From: a virus
DNA length: 37,203 nt
Direction: 5' to 3' (one strand)
Virus record (IMG/VR): IMGVR_UViG_3300028800_000050
Span: 1-37,203 of that record
Part shown: positions 5,008-27,500 of the stretch, piece after piece
Position numbering within the stretch: position 1 is the stretch's first letter
Layout of the letters: each line of letters starts with the position of its first letter
Program-made: the position numbers and the translations under genes
Notes under the pieces: generated by a model
Database searches by the model: none
Seen by the model: only the letters and a program-made list of their open reading frames with translations
What the model was told of the DNA's origin: nothing

Positions 5008-7412
5008 TTATGCGTTACCTAATGTGCAGCGAAGATTTAATAACCATTGGTCATTAAATATTCGAGGGACCATCGCTGCTTTCCAACCAACTGTTACGTT
5101 TTGTGCCAGTGGACCGGAATAGATTGCCGGACGATACACAAACGTACTGGTATAACCATCTTGACGAACAATACCATAAGCCTGCATACCAATAATAAAG
5201 TTATTATAGATGGTATTTCCCATGGATGAGCCACTGGTAATAGTCGGCGCTATGCTTGATACCAAGAATCTAACTGATCCAATTGAGCCCCATTCGGAAT
5301 CCAAAACGTTGCGATTGTTGGGATAGTTAGCCGACTGGATAAATCCTTGTACGTTATCAAGACCCTGGGAACCCGCCATATCAGTGTGGGTTAATCCAAA
5401 GTATGAACGACGCACTGGACCTGTACCAAATCGGTCTTCACCTTCAATGGCATCCATAATCGTATACGCATTAGCACCCAAAAGAGTGGTAACCGCGTCA
5501 TCAACGTCAAAACGTGACATTTCTGTTGGAATGTCGCCATTAAAACCCGCAACGCAGTTCAAGAAACTGGCTGTTGAAGCTAACATGTTTGAGGTGAGTT
5601 GATCTTCTGTTTGCAATTGTTACTATCAGAATTTTTCTGATGGATAAGTCATTTCTGCTTATCTCAAGACCTTTCGTTGTCTTGGTCGGAACATCACATC
5701 GTATTTCTACGTTCCAGGGTTTGTTCTCTCAGGCTGCATTTACGCTTGCCCCTTGTCGCCATTGCTTATGCTTTAGGCTTCCAAGTCAATTACCCAGAAT
5801 TTATACTGCGCCAAATTAACGCAGTGATACACCTAAACGGATTGCAGCTTCGTTTAATACCATTCTGTTACTTCAGCTTTCGCTTACTGACCCTTTCGGG
5901 CGGGCGCTTTCTCTACTTACGCCTCTCTATATTTCTATAGAGTTCAGAGCACCGCATCGTCTTTCGACGTCTTCTCGCTTGCTACGTTCACGCTGCACGG
6001 CTCGTTGCCTGCTTGCGCCTTGTTGCCTTCAGCATTACCTGGTAAGGGTTTCAAGTCCATCAGAGAAGATTTAACGACCCCATATTTGTTCAAATATATT
6101 AATTTCTGATAACAGTCTTCCCGAAAACTTAATTCTTCTGGAGAGATTCCTAAAATACAATGCTTGGTTGCCTTATATTTTTCACAAAACTCTAATAATT
6201 GTTTGGCATTCTCTTTCTTGAATCCCAAAAAAGGAATTATTTGTTTAAGGAAAACTATACTTTCTTCTCTAGAATAAATCCCAAATTGATAGTGGAAGCC
6301 ACCCATCGCAGACTTGTTTTTAGGAATATATAACTTACCTAAACAACAATTCTCTCTTAAATAATTTATAGCTCTGGCATCACACATAGATAGGCTAATT
6401 ACAGGCATGTATCTGGGATGAATAACAGAAGTACCTTTATTTTTATTCTGTCTTTTTATTGAAAACGAACCATCAGTATCCATTATCCCAGCAATATAAG
6501 ACCAAAATATAAGATCTGACGTATTCTGCTTTGCAAGTTTGGCTGAAATAGTATTATCAAAAGACTTCCAATCATTGTATTGGATCATCTTTATATAATG
6601 CCTCTCTCTGTCGGCAATCAAATCTGCGCTTAATGGAATCCCTCTTTTAAAGGTAAATTCTGTACAGAATTTCAGTAAAAACTCAGCACGATCTTTTTTA
6701 ATCTTTAAAAATGGGATCAATTCCTCTAATGCAGGCTTAACATTAATAGAAGACCTAAGCTTCCATCGAAATCTATTTTTACCAAACGAACCATCTTTAC
6801 ATTTCAATAATTTTCCAACAATAAAATTACCGCCAAACAAACCAATCATCTTTCTGATCATGCCTTCATCATGATTCTGAAGTTGCATTTCAGGATAATA
6901 CAAAGGACTGGCATTGGTCTTTAGCTTACCAATTCCAAAACTTCCATCTCCATCCATAACTCCAGCAGCATATGCCATATCTATATTCTTCCTATCCATG
7001 GTAACCCTTAGTTATATATTAATAATATAACGAAGTTTACATGGGTTTATTTAAAGAAGCAAGTTATCTAATTAATATAATTTAAACCTGTAATCTGTCT
7101 AGGGTCCTGGTTTTGAAGTGTTACCTGCTCATTTATGGCGACGTACGTTCCGTAAAAACTCATTTTTGCGTCAATATCAACTGCAGTTAAGTTTTGAGGC
7201 GGAGGTGTAATACCACTATTTCCAAGAGGAACGAGTGCTGGTTGGAGTGGATTATAACGACGCCATCTTTCCGTAGTACCACCATTTCTTTGCATTTGCA
7301 TTTTCATTGCAGGTAATGCAAAGATAAAGTTTGGTACAGGAACGGCTAATAGCTTTTTATTAAAAGATGCCTGAATTGGAGCAGGCAAACTCGAGGTAGT
7401 AGTTATTGCCAT
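5008..7412 (-). CDS. Major capsid protein, three exons (7412-7101, 5860-5819, 5613-5008) split by two group I introns
   Basis: Exon 1 (104 codons; ATG at 7412 with AAGGA upstream) ends in QVTLQNQDP. A 42-nt exon 2 encodes VLNEAAIRLGVSLR. Exon 3 (201 codons plus stop) starts QTEDQLTSNML. Joined, they give a 319-aa protein with the features I know from N4-gp56-type capsid proteins: RWRRYNPL, DPVLNEAA, TEDQL, GDIPTEMSRFDVDD, NAYTI, FGTGPVRRSYF, HTD, SIGSVRFLVSS, YRPAIYSGPLA. All junctions are phase 0. Without splicing, translation stops ten codons into intron 1, and the first three bases of intron 2 are a TAA. Scaffold and connector genes flank it. Apparent independent starts (7469, or a TTG at 5616) are artefacts. 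Confidence 0.92.
5614..5818 (-). ncRNA. Compact group I intron (intron 2, 205 nt, no ORF)
   Basis: The 5' splice site follows ACTGCGT. These seven exon bases pair with GCGCAGT seven bases into the intron, leaving the canonical U-G pair at the splice site (P1). The four bases just before that guide, TTTG, pair with CAAA, the first bases of exon 3 (P10). The intron ends in G, as group I introns do. Near the 3' end are three consecutive hairpins: AAGAC/GTCTT, GATAAG/CTTATC and TCAGAA/TTCTGA. It shares GGCRACAAGGSGCAAGC with intron 1, probably part of the P4-P6 core. I could not assign P3, P7 and P8 by eye. Confidence 0.88.
5861..7100 (-). ncRNA. Group I intron with endonuclease ORF (intron 1, 1240 nt)
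   Basis: Boundaries are set by capsid protein continuity (QNQDP joined to VLNEAA), by an exon ending in T and by an intron ending in G. The last 30 bases (AGCGAAAGCTG ... AGAATG) resemble the P9 end of cyanobacterial tRNA group IC3 introns as I remember it. P1 is imperfect: GACCCT against AGGTTT, with one mismatch and a U-A rather than U-G pair at the cut. A short P10 (GTA with TAC, directly before the guide) supports the register. The catalytic core lies in about 5861-6060 and overlaps the 3' end of the endonuclease gene. The 5' splice site is less secure than that of intron 2. Confidence 0.83.
5944..6999 (-). CDS. LAGLIDADG homing endonuclease encoded in intron 1, 351 aa
   Basis: Two LAGLIDADG motifs are visible: AYAAGVMDGDGSFGI (about residues 9-23) and SYIAGIMDTDGSFSI (about 165-180), each with its acidic residue, so one chain holds both half-domains. 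The expected role is to cut intronless capsid genes at the intron insertion site and spread the intron; a maturase role is possible. The ATG follows AAGGGTTACC. The last 35 or so residues (GNAEGNKAQAGNEPCS ...) are encoded by the ribozyme core and read like RNA-constrained sequence rather than protein fold. The frame is intact, so the enzyme is probably active. Confidence 0.92.
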   Translation of the reverse strand: MDRKNIDMAYAAGVMDGDGSFGIGKLKTNASPLYYPEMQLQNHDEGMIRKMIGLFGGNFIVGKLLKCKDGSFGKNRFRWKLRSSINVKPALEELIPFLKIKKDRAEFLLKFCTEFTFKRGIPLSADLIADRERHYIKMIQYNDWKSFDNTISAKLAKQNTSDLIFWSYIAGIMDTDGSFSIKRQNKNKGTSVIHPRYMPVISLSMCDARAINYLRENCCLGKLYIPKNKSAMGGFHYQFGIYSREESIVFLKQIIPFLGFKKENAKQLLEFCEKYKATKHCILGISPEELSFREDCYQKLIYLNKYGVVKSSLMDLKPLPGNAEGNKAQAGNEPCSVNVASEKTSKDDAVL

Positions 7413-15529: not shown

Positions 15530-15848
15530 AATTATCCTTAAAGAAGTTTTTTTTCGCTTTGATCTCTTCTTCTACTAACATATTAACATTTATGGGGCTT
15601 ATATTTGCGAATCTATATCCTTCTAATTCGTTATTGAGTTTTTTTAAATCTCTATGAGCCTCAAATAATTCTTTTTTATAAGATTCAGCATTATAGTCAA
15701 TTAAACCTATTTGGGCAGCCAAATTTTGAAACCATAAATTAAGTTCTATTGTTGAAAACTCTTCATAAGAAATTCCCTCTAACTGCATCATTAAATTTTG
15801 AACGTTTTTTTCCAAATTTTCGTCGAAATCATACGCGAATTTTTTCAA
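15522..15848 (-). CDS. Uncharacterised helical protein, TTG start, 108 aa
   Basis: Reading starts at a TTG that overlaps the terminase stop (TTTTGA) with GGGAG seven bases upstream, inside the terminase C-terminus. The N-terminus KKFAYDFDENLEKNVQNLM resembles the KRYDFSYTFDENVQKQQ region of the next protein, suggesting related domains. A predicted coiled coil covers about residues 60-80. Function unknown. Confidence 0.55.
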   Translation of the reverse strand: MKKFAYDFDENLEKNVQNLMMQLEGISYEEFSTIELNLWFQNLAAQIGLIDYNAESYKKELFEAHRDLKKLNNELEGYRFANISPINVNMLVEEEIKAKKNFFKDNCE

Positions 15849-18244
15849 AACATTCTCCCATTAAATTTATTTCCCGTCCCACTGAATGGATTCGAACTAG
15901 TAAACGGATTATCAAAACCTTGTTCGCTACCATACATAACCTTGTTATAACCACGACGCGCATCTTCTTCGGTCATTCCTTGCTGATGCTGATCTAACGT
16001 AAGACACATATATCTAAAAGAATCACACCAATCGCTATGTTGATCGTGATACGGCTGCTGTTTATAGATTTTTTTACCGTCATCCCACTCACGGTGATAA
16101 GACTCTAATGCAACAATTAACTTAGCGCATTTCTGTTCATCAATATAAATACGACTAAACGAGGCCATAACCTTCTCAATGCCATCAGCAACAGAGACGC
16201 GTGGAGTGGCACTTACCATCTTGCCTTTATTCTCTCTAACTTCAAAGTTTAAACCTAGTTGGCGAGCCATCTCTATTCGCGTATGACCGGTTTGATAATC
16301 ATGTATCTCTATATCATGAGGACCGAAGTGCTTAGAATATACGTACTCTTTGGATTGTATGACTTTAATATAGTGATTCAATGGCTGGTTCGTATTGGCA
16401 TAACTGTCTATCACATGCACCAAATTATTTTTAGTTAATTGTCCAAAAACAATTACAGTTTGATCATTAAAACCTAGGTCCCATGCTGTAAATACAGGTA
16501 AGGACGGGTCATAAGGAACTTTGCCAATACGACCATCATTTCTCATTGCTAATACATAATTAGCATAAAAAGAACCTTCAACACCACGATCCCAGGAGCA
16601 ATTATGTACCGACCGACCGTTTATCAAATAACTTTCATCATATTGAACCGATAGATTATAAACTAATCCTTTAAATTTATATGTATCAATCGATCTTATA
16701 CGAGCTGCGATGCAATTTTTAGCTCTAATCAGTTGTGTTTCCTGATTTTTAACTCTTATGCCAGAAAAAGAAATGTGTACTTGATATGACTTTTGGCAAT
16801 TAATAGATCTGCCATCTATGATACCCTGGCATGCATCTCTAATAGATATTCCGGCTGCATATACGAGATTCAAGCTATTTGCTAGTAATTGGACCTGATA
16901 TGCCAATGTTTTACTCACCGTAGAATATATAAATCTTTCTTGGTTCTTATGGATGCCATGGGATCCATCTCCCTTCATAAGCTCATGGAAGAAATCTTCT
17001 TCGTGAGAACTAATTAAATGAAATGGGATTCGTTTGTTGTTGGCCATTAGCCCACAACTCGATTTAAAGAAATCAGCAAGCTGGACTGAATTAACTTGAA
17101 CTACGCTCATTGAATCGGTAACCGAAATAGCGTAAGGCAACCCTAATGACTTTAAATATTCGATAATTATAGGAGCTTCATCGTGTATTATTGAAAACTG
17201 CGCTGCATTATTCATGCAAGAACCTTCTGTAATATACCATGCCAGTAACATACAAAGCTCATGAGATATTACTGGATATTCTCCTAATGTCATTTTGGGA
17301 AACACAACTCTATCATCTTCCGTAATTTTGCGGGCTTCTTTCCATTCGTAAGATTGAGTAGATGAATGATATATTCTTAGGGGATGATTAGGCGTACAAA
17401 TAATATTTTCACCAGAACCAAAGGATGATATCTCGATTAAATCCCCTTCATATTCTCTAGAAATAACATCCAGAACCTTTCTTAATCTACCTGAGTGAGA
17501 TACAACCAGATCATCCCTACAAATCATCTCAATAGATTTTGATTCACGATCTGTCAATACTTGTTGCCCAGCAGGAAAACAATAGTATTCTTGTTGGATG
17601 AACTCTTCTGAATGTATAAGGCGCTCTTTATCAAGCGCCTCTTGCGTTATATGTTTTGTATCATCGACAGTAATACGATAACGCCACCAATCTGGCCACT
17701 GTTTGGCTCTTTCCCATAAATCATAAAAATGATTGCGTCCCAATGGGGTAGATATAAAGACAATTTTCCCTCCATTAGCTGCTACAATCGGCGAAGCAAA
17801 CTCAAAAGCACGATAGTCAGCACGGCTAAACTCAGAGAATATAATAAGAGTAGCGTTAGAACCAACAACTGAGGTATCATACTTATCCGATCCACGTAAT
17901 TGGATGACACTATTGTTCATCAAGGTAATCTTAAGTTCGGTAGCATTCATAGACTTGATAAGTTCTGGTGGAATCAGATCCAAGAAGCGCGTCCCATCAT
18001 TGCTTATCGCATCCCATATGACACTTCGTGCCTGTCTAAATTGGGGCAAGAAGTACAGAACCGTCGTGGTCTTTCTCAATGCCCAACGAATAGCAAAGTT
18101 CCACGCCATATAATCCTTACCCAAACGGCGCGGGCCCACAAAAATAGCAGCTCGGTATTTGTTACTATTCTCCATAGCCTCAAAAAAGGGAATTTGATAA
18201 CTACGAGGGATGAACTTATCTAGTTTGATCATAGAGAAATCCAT
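15845..18244 (-). CDS. terL: Terminase large subunit interrupted by an intein, 799 aa precursor
   Basis: The packaging motor: an N-terminal ATPase and a C-terminal nuclease. The ATPase shows a P-loop FVGPRRLGKD (residues 35-44, with D where S/T is usual) and a Walker B-like LIIFSEFS (133-140). The nuclease shows FTAWDLGFND (585-594), EIHDYQTG and QHSDWCDSFRYM (735-746), the expected acidic residues of the RuvC-like fold. Residues 222-548 are an intein; splicing leaves a 472-aa terminase joined as QQEYY-CSWDRGVEG, a normal length. The ribosome binding site is weak. Confidence 0.92.
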   Translation of the reverse strand: MDFSMIKLDKFIPRSYQIPFFEAMENSNKYRAAIFVGPRRLGKDYMAWNFAIRWALRKTTTVLYFLPQFRQARSVIWDAISNDGTRFLDLIPPELIKSMNATELKITLMNNSVIQLRGSDKYDTSVVGSNATLIIFSEFSRADYRAFEFASPIVAANGGKIVFISTPLGRNHFYDLWERAKQWPDWWRYRITVDDTKHITQEALDKERLIHSEEFIQQEYYCFPAGQQVLTDRESKSIEMICRDDLVVSHSGRLRKVLDVISREYEGDLIEISSFGSGENIICTPNHPLRIYHSSTQSYEWKEARKITEDDRVVFPKMTLGEYPVISHELCMLLAWYITEGSCMNNAAQFSIIHDEAPIIIEYLKSLGLPYAISVTDSMSVVQVNSVQLADFFKSSCGLMANNKRIPFHLISSHEEDFFHELMKGDGSHGIHKNQERFIYSTVSKTLAYQVQLLANSLNLVYAAGISIRDACQGIIDGRSINCQKSYQVHISFSGIRVKNQETQLIRAKNCIAARIRSIDTYKFKGLVYNLSVQYDESYLINGRSVHNCSWDRGVEGSFYANYVLAMRNDGRIGKVPYDPSLPVFTAWDLGFNDQTVIVFGQLTKNNLVHVIDSYANTNQPLNHYIKVIQSKEYVYSKHFGPHDIEIHDYQTGHTRIEMARQLGLNFEVRENKGKMVSATPRVSVADGIEKVMASFSRIYIDEQKCAKLIVALESYHREWDDGKKIYKQQPYHDQHSDWCDSFRYMCLTLDQHQQGMTEEDARRGYNKVMYGSEQGFDNPFTSSNPFSGTGNKFNGRMF
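16601..17581 (-). other. Intein with LAGLIDADG endonuclease domain inside terL, 327 aa
   Basis: It begins with Cys222 (CFPAGQQVLTD, block A), has a block B with the TxxH motif (NIICTPNHPLRI), two LAGLIDADG-like helices (CMLLAWYITEGSC at 331-343 and FFHELMKGDGSHG at 418-430), block F (YNLSVQYDESYLINGRSV) and ends His547-Asn548, with Cys549 as the first downstream residue. All catalytic residues for splicing are present, and both endonuclease motifs keep an acidic residue (E340, D426), so it is likely active in both roles. The insertion site lies between the ATPase and nuclease domains at a conserved segment. Confidence 0.95.
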
Positions 18245-25028: not shown

Positions 25029-25964
25029 CTAAAAATATTCTATGATCGTTACTTGACCTTTACCGCCCATGCCGCCTGCTCCGGAAGTAGTACCATTGAT
25101 ACTGCCACCTCCGCCGCCGCCGCCACCACCGGGAGCCCCGCCGACCCCACCGTTACCGGCAACTATACCAATGGACTGGCCGCCACCGCCGCCACCACCG
25201 GTTCCAGCAACATAAAAACCATGAGAAATTATTCCTGGATTACCATTACCACCGTTTATAGAAGAGCCACCTTCAATTCCCCCAGTTCCTCCAGCAACGT
25301 ATACTGTTGATGAGTTAGAGCCGATCATAACATAAGAGGCGCCATTTCCCGCTTGCTGTGCAGTCACGGCGTTAGCGCCAGATCCCCCCGCTGCTATAGA
25401 TCCTAGCCAATATTCAGATTGTAATGGTCCAGCAGTGGAACTCGTCGTGTTAGATCCGTTTCCTGCTGTTCTAGTAGTAAATGTAGCTAATATGCCATTT
25501 ATACCAAAAGCAAAAGCTCCGGGATTAGTGCTATTAAAAGCCAATCCAACCCCACCATTTCCAATACTAGTAGTGCCACCTAATGCTATCGCTAATGATG
25601 AATTTGCTACAGAAAAACCGATATTCCCAAGAGTACTCTGACCACCCAAACTGCCCGAAATTCCATTAGTACTCGTAGAAGTTTGTCCTAATGCTCCTGT
25701 CCCACCATTTCCAATGGTCACGGTTTCTGAAGATGCAAAAGCAGAAGCGGGGAGAGCCATCCATAGATAGCCTCCTGAGTTTCCTCCGCCTCCTCCTCCA
25801 CTAGCTTGTCCTGTCAATCCCTGACGACCAGATGCGCCTCCTTGGCCTCCATTATTTACGATTACATCAACTACTGTGGTTCGTGAGTTTTTAGTCCATG
25901 TGCCGCTATTGGTAAATGTGGTAATGAGAATTCCAGCACTATTTGTTGCATTATTTGTTGCCAT
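25029..25964 (-). CDS. Glycine-rich fibre tip protein, copy B, 311 aa
   Basis: AGGAGCACT precedes the ATG. Glycine runs (ASGGGGGGNSGG, GTGGGGGGGQS, APGGGGGGGGGS) suggest stacked polyglycine-II helices, the fold known from receptor-binding tips such as gp38 of phage S16. N-terminal 120 and C-terminal 60 residues are close to those of the neighbouring 309-aa protein; residues about 130-215 (FNSTNPGAFAFGINGI ... SEYWLGSIAAGG) differ. This points to duplication followed by divergence of the recognition part. Role inferred from composition and place. Confidence 0.72.
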   Translation of the reverse strand: MATNNATNSAGILITTFTNSGTWTKNSRTTVVDVIVNNGGQGGASGRQGLTGQASGGGGGGNSGGYLWMALPASAFASSETVTIGNGGTGALGQTSTSTNGISGSLGGQSTLGNIGFSVANSSLAIALGGTTSIGNGGVGLAFNSTNPGAFAFGINGILATFTTRTAGNGSNTTSSTAGPLQSEYWLGSIAAGGSGANAVTAQQAGNGASYVMIGSNSSTVYVAGGTGGIEGGSSINGGNGNPGIISHGFYVAGTGGGGGGGQSIGIVAGNGGVGGAPGGGGGGGGGSINGTTSGAGGMGGKGQVTIIEYF

Positions 25965-25971
25965 AGTGCTC

Positions 25972-26901
25972 CTAGAGATATTCGATGATTATTATCTGAC
26001 CTTTACCGCCATTACCGCCAGCACCGGAAGTAGTACCATTGATGCTACCGCCTCCGCCGCCTCCCCCGCCACCAGGAGCGCCCCCATTCCCACCATGACC
26101 TGCGGATCCACCAGACGACTGACCGCCACCACCACCACCGCCGGTACCTCCAGTGAATATACCACCCGTAGTTAAGCCAGGATTTCCATCAGTACCGTTG
26201 ATAGAAGAGCCACCCTCAATTCCTCCAACGCCACCTAGTAGAATTGTTGGAGTACCGTTTCCTGCGGTTAAATAAGCGCCGCCATTCCCTGCCTGTTGAG
26301 GTGTTCCTGTATTCGCGCCAGAACCACCACCTCCACCAGTAGGTGACCAAAAATTGCTAAAAGAGCTCGTTGCATTTGTTCCGGTAGTATTTGAACCGCT
26401 AGCTGCACTGACTGAAGTTAATCCTCCATAAGGACCGATGAGTGTAGTTGTATAAAGACCAGTATTAGTATTAGTGGAAGTAAATCCTGTTCCGCCAGCT
26501 GCTGAAGTTGTCGTTCCGCCTGTGGCTAAAGTAGCAACGCCTAAAACACTAAATCCTATATTACCAACTGTTGATTGGCCTCCAACAACTCCGGCAATAC
26601 CATTTGTTCCCGAACTAGTTTGGCCTAATGCTCCAGTTCCTCCAAGTCCAATGGTCACGGTTTCTGAAGATGCAAAAACGGAAGCCGGAAGAGTCATTGC
26701 ACTATAAGTGCCTGAGTTGTGACCTGCTCCACCCCCGCCAGCTGATCCTGAAGCCCCCTGACGACCAGATGCGCCACCTTGTCCGCCATTCCATACAATT
26801 ACATCAACCACATTAGTTCGAACATTTTTAGTCCATGTTCCGCTATTGGTAAATGTAGTCATAATTATTGCGGCACTATTCGTTGCATTTTGCGTTGCCA
26901 T
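25972..26901 (-). CDS. Glycine-rich fibre tip protein, copy A, 309 aa
   Basis: Start MATQNATNSA chosen for AGGAATATAT before it and because the paralogue begins MATNNATNSA; a longer frame from 26973 overlaps the upstream gene. It shares FTNSGTWTKN, NGGQGGASGRQG, FASSETVTIG.GGTGALGQTS and the C-terminal APGGGGGGGGGSINGTTSGAGG with copy B. The middle (FTSTNTNTGLYTTTLIGPYGGLTS ... SNFWSPTGGGG) is different. The two genes are eight bases apart in tandem. Confidence 0.72.
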   Translation of the reverse strand: MATQNATNSAAIIMTTFTNSGTWTKNVRTNVVDVIVWNGGQGGASGRQGASGSAGGGGAGHNSGTYSAMTLPASVFASSETVTIGLGGTGALGQTSSGTNGIAGVVGGQSTVGNIGFSVLGVATLATGGTTTSAAGGTGFTSTNTNTGLYTTTLIGPYGGLTSVSAASGSNTTGTNATSSFSNFWSPTGGGGGSGANTGTPQQAGNGGAYLTAGNGTPTILLGGVGGIEGGSSINGTDGNPGLTTGGIFTGGTGGGGGGGQSSGGSAGHGGNGGAPGGGGGGGGGSINGTTSGAGGNGGKGQIIIIEYL

Positions 26902-26909
26902 ATATATTC

Positions 26910-27500
26910 CTAAACTATAGTAATATTGCCCTGAGCGCTCCGGACTGCAAAATCTGTATTTGCCGTAATACATAACAATGTAAGACCATCATATAGATTA
27001 GTTGAAGCTAGACTTCCGCCGGCACCGGTTGTTGTATTAACATTACCAAAATGGATGGTTTGGCCTGAATTTTGGGCTATTACCCAACCTCCTGAACCTT
27101 TACCTTGAACTTGAATGACAGTTCCAAAAGCTGCAGTAGCTGGCAATGTTAGTGTAACTAATCCAGCGTTGTCTGCTACATAGCCATTATTTACTGCTAA
27201 TGAAGCAGAAGTACCAGTGACGTCAGTCCACGCCATTCCTACGAAACCAGCTTCTAAATTTAATGTATTTGCTCCGGTAGTATAAGAAATCGTTCCGCCG
27301 GTGGAAGTTAGAGTAGCAAATGCAGGATCAGCTCCGGTAGCACCCAGAAGAACTTGGCCATTCGTACCAACCGATAATTGCGTTAATCCGGCTGTTGCTG
27401 CACCTACAAGAACACCATGGTTAGTTAACGTAGCTTGCCCAGTTCCACCAAATGATACTTGTATAGGCTTATTAGACCCTATAGAATTTATTGTTGCCAT
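26910..27500 (-). CDS. Tail fibre module protein, 196 aa
   Basis: AAAGGAAATTA precedes the ATG. Residues 35-75 carry the VGTNGQVLLGATGADPAFATLTS module shared with the 380-aa fibre. Residues 88-196 are a domain (VNNGYVADNAGLVTLTLPATAAFGTVIQV, GGWVIAQNSGQTIHFGN, TSLAST-like turn, NTDFAVRSAQGN) that also ends the 614-aa fibre, so it is a mobile C-terminal cassette. It may be a trimeric knob. Function in host binding is inferred. Confidence 0.7.
   Translation of the reverse strand: MATINSIGSNKPIQVSFGGTGQATLTNHGVLVGAATAGLTQLSVGTNGQVLLGATGADPAFATLTSTGGTISYTTGANTLNLEAGFVGMAWTDVTGTSASLAVNNGYVADNAGLVTLTLPATAAFGTVIQVQGKGSGGWVIAQNSGQTIHFGNVNTTTGAGGSLASTNLYDGLTLLCITANTDFAVRSAQGNITIV

Follow-up and report, generated by a model that had tools for sequence, protein, structure and literature searches.

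The nrdE gene of phage phiNIT1 has been shown with cDNA to hold two self-splicing introns separated by a small exon, and nrdE, terL, and pol of Bastillevirinae phages have several group I introns per gene (PMC11878797). Twort orf142 reportedly has several group I introns (Landthaler and Shub 1999), and exon skipping has been reported for it (PMC11878797). In placozoan cox1, two group IB introns flank an exon of 1 nt (PMC5436844), and an engineered group I spliceozyme recognises both splice sites of a core-less intron and removes it (PMC4094466). The open-access literature searched yielded neither a natural spliceozyme nor a report of core-less group I introns. In the phiNIT1 nrdE sequence (L370), the intervening exon is ~60 nt and a group I core was recognised by eye in both introns; the gene was rejected as an experimental case of a core-less intron because both introns show the core. 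Here, we report a 37,203-nucleotide stretch of viral DNA (the window) that very likely contains the major capsid gene of a tailed phage, split after codons 104 and 118. The three exons, all in phase 0, are as follows.

7101 to 7412, minus strand: exon 1 of the capsid gene, residues 1 to 104, ATG at 7412 (translation, intronless relatives)
5819 to 5860, minus strand: exon 2, the 42-nt micro-exon VLNEAAIRLGVSLR, residues 105 to 118 (alignment to relatives)
5008 to 5613, minus strand: exon 3 of the capsid gene, residues 119 to 319 plus stop (translation, relatives)

The joined protein met the family criterion for the N4-gp56 capsid (TIGR04387, 124.9 bits; curated cut-off, 60), which the exon 1 and exon 3 pieces did not reach singly (42.3 and 59.8 bits). 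It matched PHROG 1357 ("major head protein") at 4e-26 and narrowly missed Pfam Phage_capsid_4 (26.6 bits; cut-off, 27). Nine uninterrupted relatives (60 to 66% identity) aligned unbroken, micro-exon included, over residues 1 to 316, 1 to 315, or 5 to 316. The capsids of 24 cultured phage records were just 21.9 to 24.8% identical to that of the window, so there is no close isolate for experiment. A search of GTDB genome contigs with the joined capsid gave 12 stretches that fit a pattern, none of which encodes a relative.

The introns between these exons, with their guides and cores, are listed below; both have a U before the intron and a G at its end.

5861 to 7100, minus strand: intron 1, 1,240 nt, group I, complete core, capsid site 104.0 (covariance model, guide, spliced alignment)
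5614 to 5818, minus strand: intron 2, 205 nt, group I, complete core, no ORF, capsid site 118.0 (same basis as intron 1)
6076 to 6086, minus strand: guide of intron 1, P10 strand AAUAU (6086-6082) and IGS GGGGUC (6081-6076)
5805 to 5815, minus strand: guide of intron 2, P10 strand UUUG (5815-5812) and IGS GCGCAGU (5811-5805)
5861 to 6073, minus strand: ribozyme core of intron 1, P3-P9 to the 3' splice site (leave-out covariance model, 113.6 bits, 1.3e-26; pair counts)
5614 to 5803, minus strand: ribozyme core of intron 2 (leave-out covariance model, 133.0 bits, 2.2e-31; match given as 5613-5803)

Boundaries were determined with a spliced aligner (free phase) using eight intronless relatives as queries, the joined window protein being a circular query on the window itself. 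With a small bonus for U before the intron and G at its end, both introns were recovered exactly as initially assigned in 8/8 runs; without the bonus, the same two introns were found shifted by 1 nt (intron 1 once by 3 nt), as the protein sequence is compatible with more than one boundary. The guides resolve this ambiguity in favour of the assigned splice sites. P1, formed by the IGS and the end of the preceding exon, has 6 bp in intron 1 (exon 1) and 7 bp in intron 2 (exon 2); P10, formed by the P10 strand and the start of the following exon, has 5 bp (exon 2) and 4 bp (exon 3), respectively. Each intron has a single guide candidate at P1 ≥4 and P1+P10 ≥8. In both, the exon-terminal U pairs with a G of the IGS, P10 is present, and the intron ends in G, meeting the group I criterion.

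The covariance model that gave the scores above was built without the window rows and had no further match in the window at E ≤1. P7 pairing is absent from this model and was assessed through pair counts in 21 cores (the window's two included) against 500 shuffles. Over P3, P4, P5, P6, P7, and P9, 96.5% of cells were paired (71.0% in shuffles), both sides had changed in 23/30 pairs (18.1 in shuffles), and the covariation score was 0.696 (0.209 in shuffles), values reached by 0/500 shuffles in each case; further pair types did not exceed shuffles (46 versus 42.1; 49/500). The criterion of a conserved P3-P9 core with a P3/P7 pseudoknot was met in both introns. An Rfam search of the window returned no group I match (none at gathering, one unrelated sub-threshold match at E ≤5), so the group I assignment rests on the local model, which matched both introns, and on the classical guide and P7 features. 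An Rfam match is not defining by itself, and the local model shows the core.

The initial annotation, made from the letters of the window alone, fared well on these points. Its two adjacent group I introns held (leave-out covariance model, pair counts, guides), as did the 42-nt exon supplying 14 missing residues in correct order and phase (intronless relatives, spliced alignment), with the joined protein aligning end to end to intronless relatives and the VLNEAAIRLGVSLR segment present. The N4-gp56-type capsid held on the TIGR04387 score, and phase 0 with a terminal G held on translations and on the guides, which fix the boundaries. Early in-frame stops in both introns were also confirmed: intron 1 has 10 sense codons before its stop (ORF end, 7068), and in intron 2 a TAA directly follows codon 118. 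The claim that splicing is obligatory follows from these stops and held in part, there being no RNA evidence. Anatomy, guides, covariation, phase, and reading frame are shown for the window introns; splicing itself is inferred. Exon 2 might sometimes be skipped, a possibility on which there are no RNA data; loss of 42 nt would preserve the frame.

Intron 1 contains one further feature.

5944 to 6999, minus strand: homing endonuclease ORF, 351 aa, two LAGLIDADG-like motifs, within intron 1 (PF00961, 3.3e-9)

This ORF met the LAGLIDADG domain criterion (PF00961, 38 bits; gathering cut-off, 23.1). It lies between the 5' splice site and the IGS and extends into the ribozyme core, and is 75% identical (best segment; residues 1 to 351 matched) to the ORF that relative L014 carries in its intron at this site. 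Given this gene, intron 1 is probably a homing unit, with cleavage of the intronless allele inferred. Intron 2 has no endonuclease gene.

Among relatives, site 104 is also occupied in L006, L014, L020, L021, and L063 and site 118 in L371 and L372. Of the two sites, L372 has 118 alone and L006, L014, L020, and L021 have 104 alone. No second contig had the exact pair of the window; the nearest, L371, has an intron at 118 and another 2 nt from site 104, with a 40-nt exon between them. Up to six introns were met in one capsid gene (L352), and the smallest exon in these genes was 22 nt (L363). The N4-gp56-type capsid gene of these phages is an intron hot spot, and the arrangement in the window is not unique. 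The claim that the arrangement is unfamiliar held in part, its novelty tempered by the L371 pair, the L363 exon, phiNIT1 nrdE, and placozoan cox1.

Relatives also contain mini-introns without a ribozyme core. These are absent from the window and formed no part of the initial annotation; they are the most unusual feature of the family. In 36 distinct loci, a 28- to 59-nt interruption with U before it and G at its end carries its own P1/P10 guide; 26 are at site 88 and 10 at site 81, in two capsid subfamilies. Their total length, set against the ~190-position core model, leaves the criterion of an own core unmet. At site 88, P1 is 6 to 7 bp, P10 is 3 to 6 bp, and the terminal G is present in 26/26, with in-frame stops in 25/25 counted; at site 81, the first P10 position is mismatched in 3 of 10. 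The group I criterion of P1, P10, and a terminal G is thereby satisfied, although most search patterns included P1 and the first P10 guide base. Downstream of the micro-exon, a group I core match was found in 36/36 loci, with both halves or the whole core in 29. Three had only the 3' half at E ≤0.01 (L331, L357, and L364; L357 5' half at 0.011), and four had only the 5' half, where the available sequence ends (L324, L327, L330, and L367). The label twintron was considered and fails, as a coding micro-exon separates the two introns and neither is inserted in the other.

Ascertainment bears on this sample. Most mini-intron loci were found with patterns fixing both P1a strands; one pattern additionally fixed the first base of the P10 guide along with the two bases that open the intron, and another fixed most of helix X (see below) for L322, L324, and L327. 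Five loci (L011, L019, L078, L080, and L371) were found without P1a-fixing patterns. Two loose hairpin patterns in viral contigs gave at least 120 stretches each, mostly unrelated DNA, and contributed L131, L133, L138, L150, L182, L230, and L248. A site-88 mini-intron-like stretch in L346 was not counted since its exons were unresolved, nor was L334, whose sequence ends before the core. Spliced alignment was unreliable for L346 and L357 as a whole and for L230 and L138 in their C-terminal parts, and it introduced false additional cuts close to the ends of L333, L339, L353, and L362; cuts in L011, L019, L078, L079, and L080 were taken from DNA reading, spliced alignment having misplaced them.

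The guide of the mini-introns covaries with synonymous codon changes in the micro-exon that follows, whose protein sequence is kept. At site 88, the P10 base opposite the third base of the Thr89 codon is paired in 22/22 distinct rows (GC 12, UA 4, AU 3, CG 3) and in 25/25 loci, with at least seven parsimony changes on each side (exon-1 tree, 19 loci; the six with an interrupted exon-1 stretch, L248, L333, L339, L352, L357, and L362, were left out). L322 was excluded from another alignment, A2, for its interrupted micro-exon, and two P1 pairs are gapped there in L182 and L327. A second pairing, helix X, joins mini-intron and micro-exon and covaries at sites 88 and 81; with its own micro-exon it scores −9.25 versus −4.75 kcal/mol (0/20,000 permutations). 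The end of helix X lies 7 to 9 nt before the 5' splice site of the core-bearing intron, whether that intron sits at site 97, 103, 104 (L331), or 104 phase 2 (L371), and in L322 the helix spans an intervening intron to reach the site-103 intron. P1a is invariant across mini-introns and uninformative alone; double-change pairs at site 88 (6 versus 5.4; 244/500) and further pair types at site 81 (200/500) did not exceed shuffles, and just 73% of site-81 P10 cells are paired. A search of the window for an X-like helix gave a best run of 12 bp with several G·U pairs, between intron 1 and the micro-exon; it is not claimed, the chance expectation being ~0.4 such runs by rough estimate.

We favour, as likely, a reading in which the core-bearing intron that follows supplies the ribozyme that excises the mini-introns, in cis or in trans; the association with a downstream core is shown, the splicing and the acting ribozyme are inferred. 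In the cis route, P1a would dock on core b and exon 1 would attack 3' splice site a, aligned by P10a; in the trans route, the released core-bearing intron would act on the mini-intron. Supporting this are the core-bearing intron downstream in 36/36 loci, all with the U and G boundaries, the P10 covariation with the Thr89 third base, and a covarying helix X that tracks the core-bearing intron wherever it is sited. Against it stand the absence of any experiment, the unexplained path of the G of 3' splice site a to the P7 site without P9.0, the uninformative constancy of P1a (most loci coming from P1a-fixing patterns), the pair statistics at sites 88 and 81 that lie within shuffles, and site-81 P10, with its 73% pairing and 3/10 guides mismatching the first exon base; to our knowledge, no natural case of a core shared between group I introns is known. 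A bolder version, which we also judge probable with splicing inferred, is that these are natural guide-only introns, the next intron's ribozyme splicing both and helix X juxtaposing the two P1s.

For the window, a rival reading takes the N- and C-terminal pieces as two independent genes, or the capsid gene as broken, and the match to the 14 residues as chance. It draws on both long pieces being ORFs of their own and is all but excluded by intronless relatives having the residues in place and by two covarying cores with unique guides. For the mini-introns, joining of 5' splice site a to 3' splice site b, with the micro-exon skipped as an isoform or skipping device, has precedent in phage group I exon skipping (SIOphi terminase and Twort; PMC11878797) and would preserve frame at sites 81-103 and in L331. 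It nonetheless appears unlikely: at sites 88-97 phase 0 would meet phase 2 and shift the frame, P10 pairs with the first bases of the micro-exon in 26/26 (3 bp or more), and micro-exon protein sequence is kept under synonymous change. Translational bypassing, reportedly found in T4 gene 60, would suit interruptions that are short, with hairpins and in-frame stops (25/25 counted, site 88), but take-off and landing codons are unmatched in the inspected loci (GGU versus AAG, GUG, AUG, and others), P10 covariation is given no role, and a core-bearing intron follows in 36/36 loci; we hold it very unlikely. Equally improbable is a neutral origin of the guide-like complementarity, as a DNA quasipalindrome left by template switching in contigs with broken genes. 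The insert is almost the reverse complement of the ligated junction, and constancy of the splice-site U·G is unbiased only in the five loci found without P1a-fixing patterns; yet those five have U·G where palindrome correction predicts U-A, site-88 P10 positions 2 and 3 and helix X covary outside the search patterns, the link to a downstream core is left unexplained, and the remaining capsid frame is intact in 16/20 aligned loci (within available sequence, end artefacts aside).

With neighbour-ribozyme excision as the preferred reading for the mini-introns, the overall account, two core-bearing introns in the window and further crowding in relatives, is very likely, splicing and acting ribozyme being inferred. 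The 42-nt exon would owe its existence to two independent intron gains within a conserved stretch of a hot-spot gene. Each window intron would use its own IGS to find the 5' splice site (P1), align the next exon through P10, and end in G, and both, each with its own core, would need excision for capsid protein to be made. In relatives, where crowding would be further advanced, some introns may have lost (or never had) a core and kept splice sites and guide, most likely being spliced by the ribozyme of the following intron.

The window is a clear example, open to experiment, of a structural gene that, on inferred splicing, is unreadable without two ribozymes 42 nt apart. If the account of the mini-introns is true, natural introns dependent on a shared RNA catalyst exist beyond the spliceosome and group II; catalyst and dependents would both derive from group I RNA, a formal parallel to the presumed dependence of spliceosomal introns on a shared catalyst. 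Core-based intron searches would then overlook introns, leaving split phage genes under-annotated. The L363 mini-intron (28 nt) and full intron (199 nt), with a 26-nt micro-exon between them (253 nt from mini-intron start to full-intron end), are small enough for simple in vitro work.

Twort orf142 and Bastillevirinae genes resemble this locus in the close spacing of at least two group I introns within one gene, with a small exon between them in phiNIT1 nrdE; they differ in that their genes are those of DNA metabolism, terminase, and tail tube, and no core-less intron was seen in phiNIT1 nrdE. Intron splicing in a capsid gene is reported for Cluster J mycobacteriophages (PMC3706429), but these are different phages. 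Placozoan cox1 shares the micro-exon between two group I introns, in an animal mitochondrion. The spliceozyme is man-made, acts in trans, derives from Tetrahymena, and was used on 100-nt introns, whereas the phage case is natural, adjacent, and inferred; the spliceozyme's action is nevertheless the same as that proposed here for the neighbours of the mini-introns (PMC4094466).

The capsid gene of the window lies on the minus strand in three pieces separated by two introns, numbered here by the capsid residue after which each sits (intron 1, site 104; intron 2, site 118).

Capsid exons and intron splice guides of the window
7412-7101, minus strand: capsid exon 1, 104 codons
5860-5819, minus strand: capsid exon 2 (micro-exon), 14 codons
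5613-5008, minus strand: capsid exon 3, 201 codons plus stop
6086-6076, minus strand: intron 1 guide, AAUAU.GGGGUC, sole candidate
5815-5805, minus strand: intron 2 guide, UUUG.GCGCAGU, sole candidate

Taken separately, the two long pieces scored 42.3 and 59.8 bits against TIGR04387 (N4-gp56 capsid), both below the cutoff of 60; the joined protein scored 124.9 bits. Capsid relatives were taken from viral contigs (best 80 of 109 retained; loci carry L numbers), and L001, L002, L003, and L005 were uninterrupted over residues 1 to 316 (64 to 66% identity), with the micro-exon residues present. Eight intronless relatives served as queries for spliced alignment (any phase allowed; small bonus for U preceding and G ending an intron), and 8/8 returned the same two introns with the bonus; without it, these introns were offset by 1 nt (once by 3 nt). 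The initial annotation, in which the capsid gene was split by two group I introns around a 42-nt micro-exon, was confirmed in both observation and interpretation.

Cores from the window and relatives were aligned (A3, 21 cores), and pair counts were compared with 500 shuffles. Cells of P3, P4, P5, P6, P7, and P9 were 96.5% paired (shuffled, 71.0%), 23 of 30 core pairs had changed on both sides (shuffled, 18.1), and the covariation score was 0.696 (shuffled, 0.209), each reached by 0/500 shuffles; further pair types in this alignment did not exceed shuffles (49/500 reached the count). P7 reads AACA/UGUU in intron 2, AGCA/UGCU in intron 1, and ACUA/UAGU in the majority of relatives, and the differences of the window introns are compensated changes in the guanosine-binding helix. 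A covariance model, rebuilt with the window rows left out before the window was searched, placed the intron 2 core at 5803-5613 (133.0 bits) and the intron 1 core at 6073-5861 (113.6 bits), with no further match at an E value of ≤1 across the 37-kb window. An Rfam group I search of the window, a check suggested by the initial annotation, recognized neither intron core; only the locally built model matched both. Each guide was the only candidate with P1 abutting P10 (P1, ≥4; sum, ≥8), and both set the U.G pair and terminal G at the originally annotated boundaries. Both interruptions are thus very probably group I introns, each with its own core, although splicing itself is inferred.

Intron 1 carries a LAGLIDADG open reading frame (ORF; 351 amino acids, PF00961) between the 5′ splice site and the IGS, extending into the core. 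Site 104.0 is also occupied in L006, L014, L020, L021, and L063, and the endonuclease of the L014 intron is 75% identical to that of intron 1. In L372, site 118 is occupied and site 104 is empty; L371 has site 118 plus an intron at 104 phase 2, a position shifted downstream by 2 nt relative to site 104 of the window, with a 40-nt exon between the two introns. Because sites 104 and 118 are occupied independently in relatives, the two window introns were most likely gained separately. A distant capsid relative (L368:3001-3921; C-terminal piece, 31 to 41% identity) was also observed; it has a group I core, and its intron endonuclease shares 36% identity with the one in the window.

Capsid genes were interrupted in 19 of the 80 best relatives (by alignment or reading), and in a further five (L064 to L067 and L077; L067 weakly) the model placed cores next to the capsid match. 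The most crowded gene found, L352:8387-11201, has six introns (sites 79, 88 [mini], 97, 104, 261, and 274) and exons that include 27, 26, and 22 nt; L322 (minus strand) has five, including a 59-nt mini-intron, and L363 has three. Elsewhere in the window, the terminase large subunit ORF (15845-18244, minus strand) contains an in-frame insert resembling an intein (residues ~216 to 550; PF14890, 3.5e-9; TIGR01445/TIGR01443 under cutoff), so that the head genes of this phage carry an RNA-level splicing element and, probably, a protein-level one. Two adjacent, similar-looking glycine-rich ORFs (25029-25964 and 25972-26973, minus strand) appear by eye to be paralogues.

The capsid family as a whole points to guide-only introns that likely share a neighbor's ribozyme, their splicing reactions being inferred. 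Core-less mini-introns, not present in the window, occur in relatives at site 88 (residues 88/89; 28 to 41 nt, 26 distinct loci) and, in a second capsid subfamily, at site 81 (39 to 59 nt, 10 distinct loci), all with U before the start and G as the last base. At site 88, 25/25 counted inserts contain an in-frame stop, lengths are spread evenly over three frames (9, 8, and 8), and the following micro-exon retains TY(V/I)xxNEQ. At site 81, 8/10 contain a stop, and the two without (L131 and L150) are 41 nt and frame-shifting; the inserts therefore cannot be translated through. Site 81 was read through in 48/49 loci from L022 to L070 (the remaining one was not examined). L346:930-1560 contains two strong group I cores and, at site 88, what resembles the start of a mini-intron; alignment did not resolve its exons.

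Each mini-intron contains a stretch complementary to the joined exon sequence, spanning the ligation point. Site-88 guides have a P1 of 7 bp (6 in L371), U.G at the splice site, and a P10 of 3 to 6 bp; P10 of ≥3 is expected by chance about 0.05 times per locus, random bases assumed. Search patterns behind most loci fixed both P1 strands, so P1 constancy is partly by construction; one pattern also fixed the first P10 guide base, and P10 positions 2 and 3 were left free. Five loci found without such patterns (L011, L019, L078, L080, and L371) show the same guide features. The Thr89 codon third base was paired with its P10 base in 22/22 distinct rows, with every Watson-Crick type represented (GC, 12; UA, 4; AU, 3; CG, 3), and in 25/25 loci of the tree analysis, where parsimony gave at least seven changes in the exon and in the guide (exon-1 tree, 19 of 25 loci); this is an indication only, given a tree from 198 nt and homing that could move exon and intron together. 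The whole site-88 structure had a covariation score of 0.239 (shuffled, 0.076; 0/500), and its double-changed pairs did not exceed shuffles (6 versus 5.4; 244/500). The site-81 structure scored 0.130 (shuffled, 0.050; 0/500), with pair types not beyond shuffles; 73% of its P10 cells were paired, covarying in the same sense as site 88 (CGGCA/UGCCG in L080, CUACA/UGUAG in L133), with the first base mismatched in L078, L138, and L324.

A group I core match, not required by any search pattern, lay downstream of the micro-exon in 36/36 mini-intron loci. Both core halves or the whole core matched in 29; L331, L357, and L364 had only the 3′ half at an E value of ≤0.01 (with the 5′ half of L357 reaching 0.011), and L324, L327, L330, and L367 had only the 5′ half because the available DNA ends there. 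The converse fails, since the full intron occurs in L075 and L076 in the absence of a mini-intron. Directly 3′ of the mini-intron guide, a strand of ~9 nt forms a helix (X) with the 3′ portion of the micro-exon, and this helix covaries with synonymous codons. Pairing with the own micro-exon was stronger than with others (−9.25 versus −4.75 kcal/mol; 0/20000 permutations); the own micro-exon was the best or tied-best partner in only 13/22 rows, synonymous recodings matched the pairing in 11% of draws on average, and X was interrupted in 7/23 rows (ungapped run, ≤6 bp). The partner strand stops where P1 of the core-bearing intron starts, 8 nt before the splice site at site 97 (21/23 ungapped), 7 nt before at site 103, 9 nt before at site 104 in L331, and 8 nt before at 104 phase 2 in L371. 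In L322, an extra full intron intervenes, and X nonetheless pairs with the exon adjoining the site-103 intron. Five hand-chosen segments, one from site 81 and four from site 88 in which the P1b loop is short, fold as three hairpins, P1a, X, and P1b (a, mini-intron; b, core-bearing intron), with gaps of 0 to 2 nt, each stabler than all of its 200 shuffles. An element around TTCTTTGAAAT...GGTTTTGTAAGCAGATA was observed to be conserved in L1 of many site-97 introns adjoining mini-introns, between the 5′ splice site and the IGS (L011, L019, L335, L337, L365, and others); it was absent from L230, L248, L352, L361, and L363.

The guides, reading frames, associations, and covariation of the mini-introns are shown; the splicing reactions are inferred. 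We propose that helix X would keep P1a beside P1b, leaving a single core able to dock either. GTP would attack at 5′ splice site a, and the freed exon, aligned on the micro-exon by P10a, would attack at the 3′ end of the mini-intron, just past its terminal G, which is predicted to fall within the X loop. The core would next employ P1b and excise its own intron. It is also possible that intron b would be released first and then act in trans.

No natural case of a ribozyme removing another intron was found in the open-access literature searched; an engineered spliceozyme does this (PMC4094466). Exon skipping is known for phage introns (PMC11878797). Two group I introns flank a small exon in placozoan mitochondria (PMC5436844) and, with cDNA evidence, in nrdE of phage phiNIT1 (PMC11878797), where, in our own reading of the sequence, both introns show cores.
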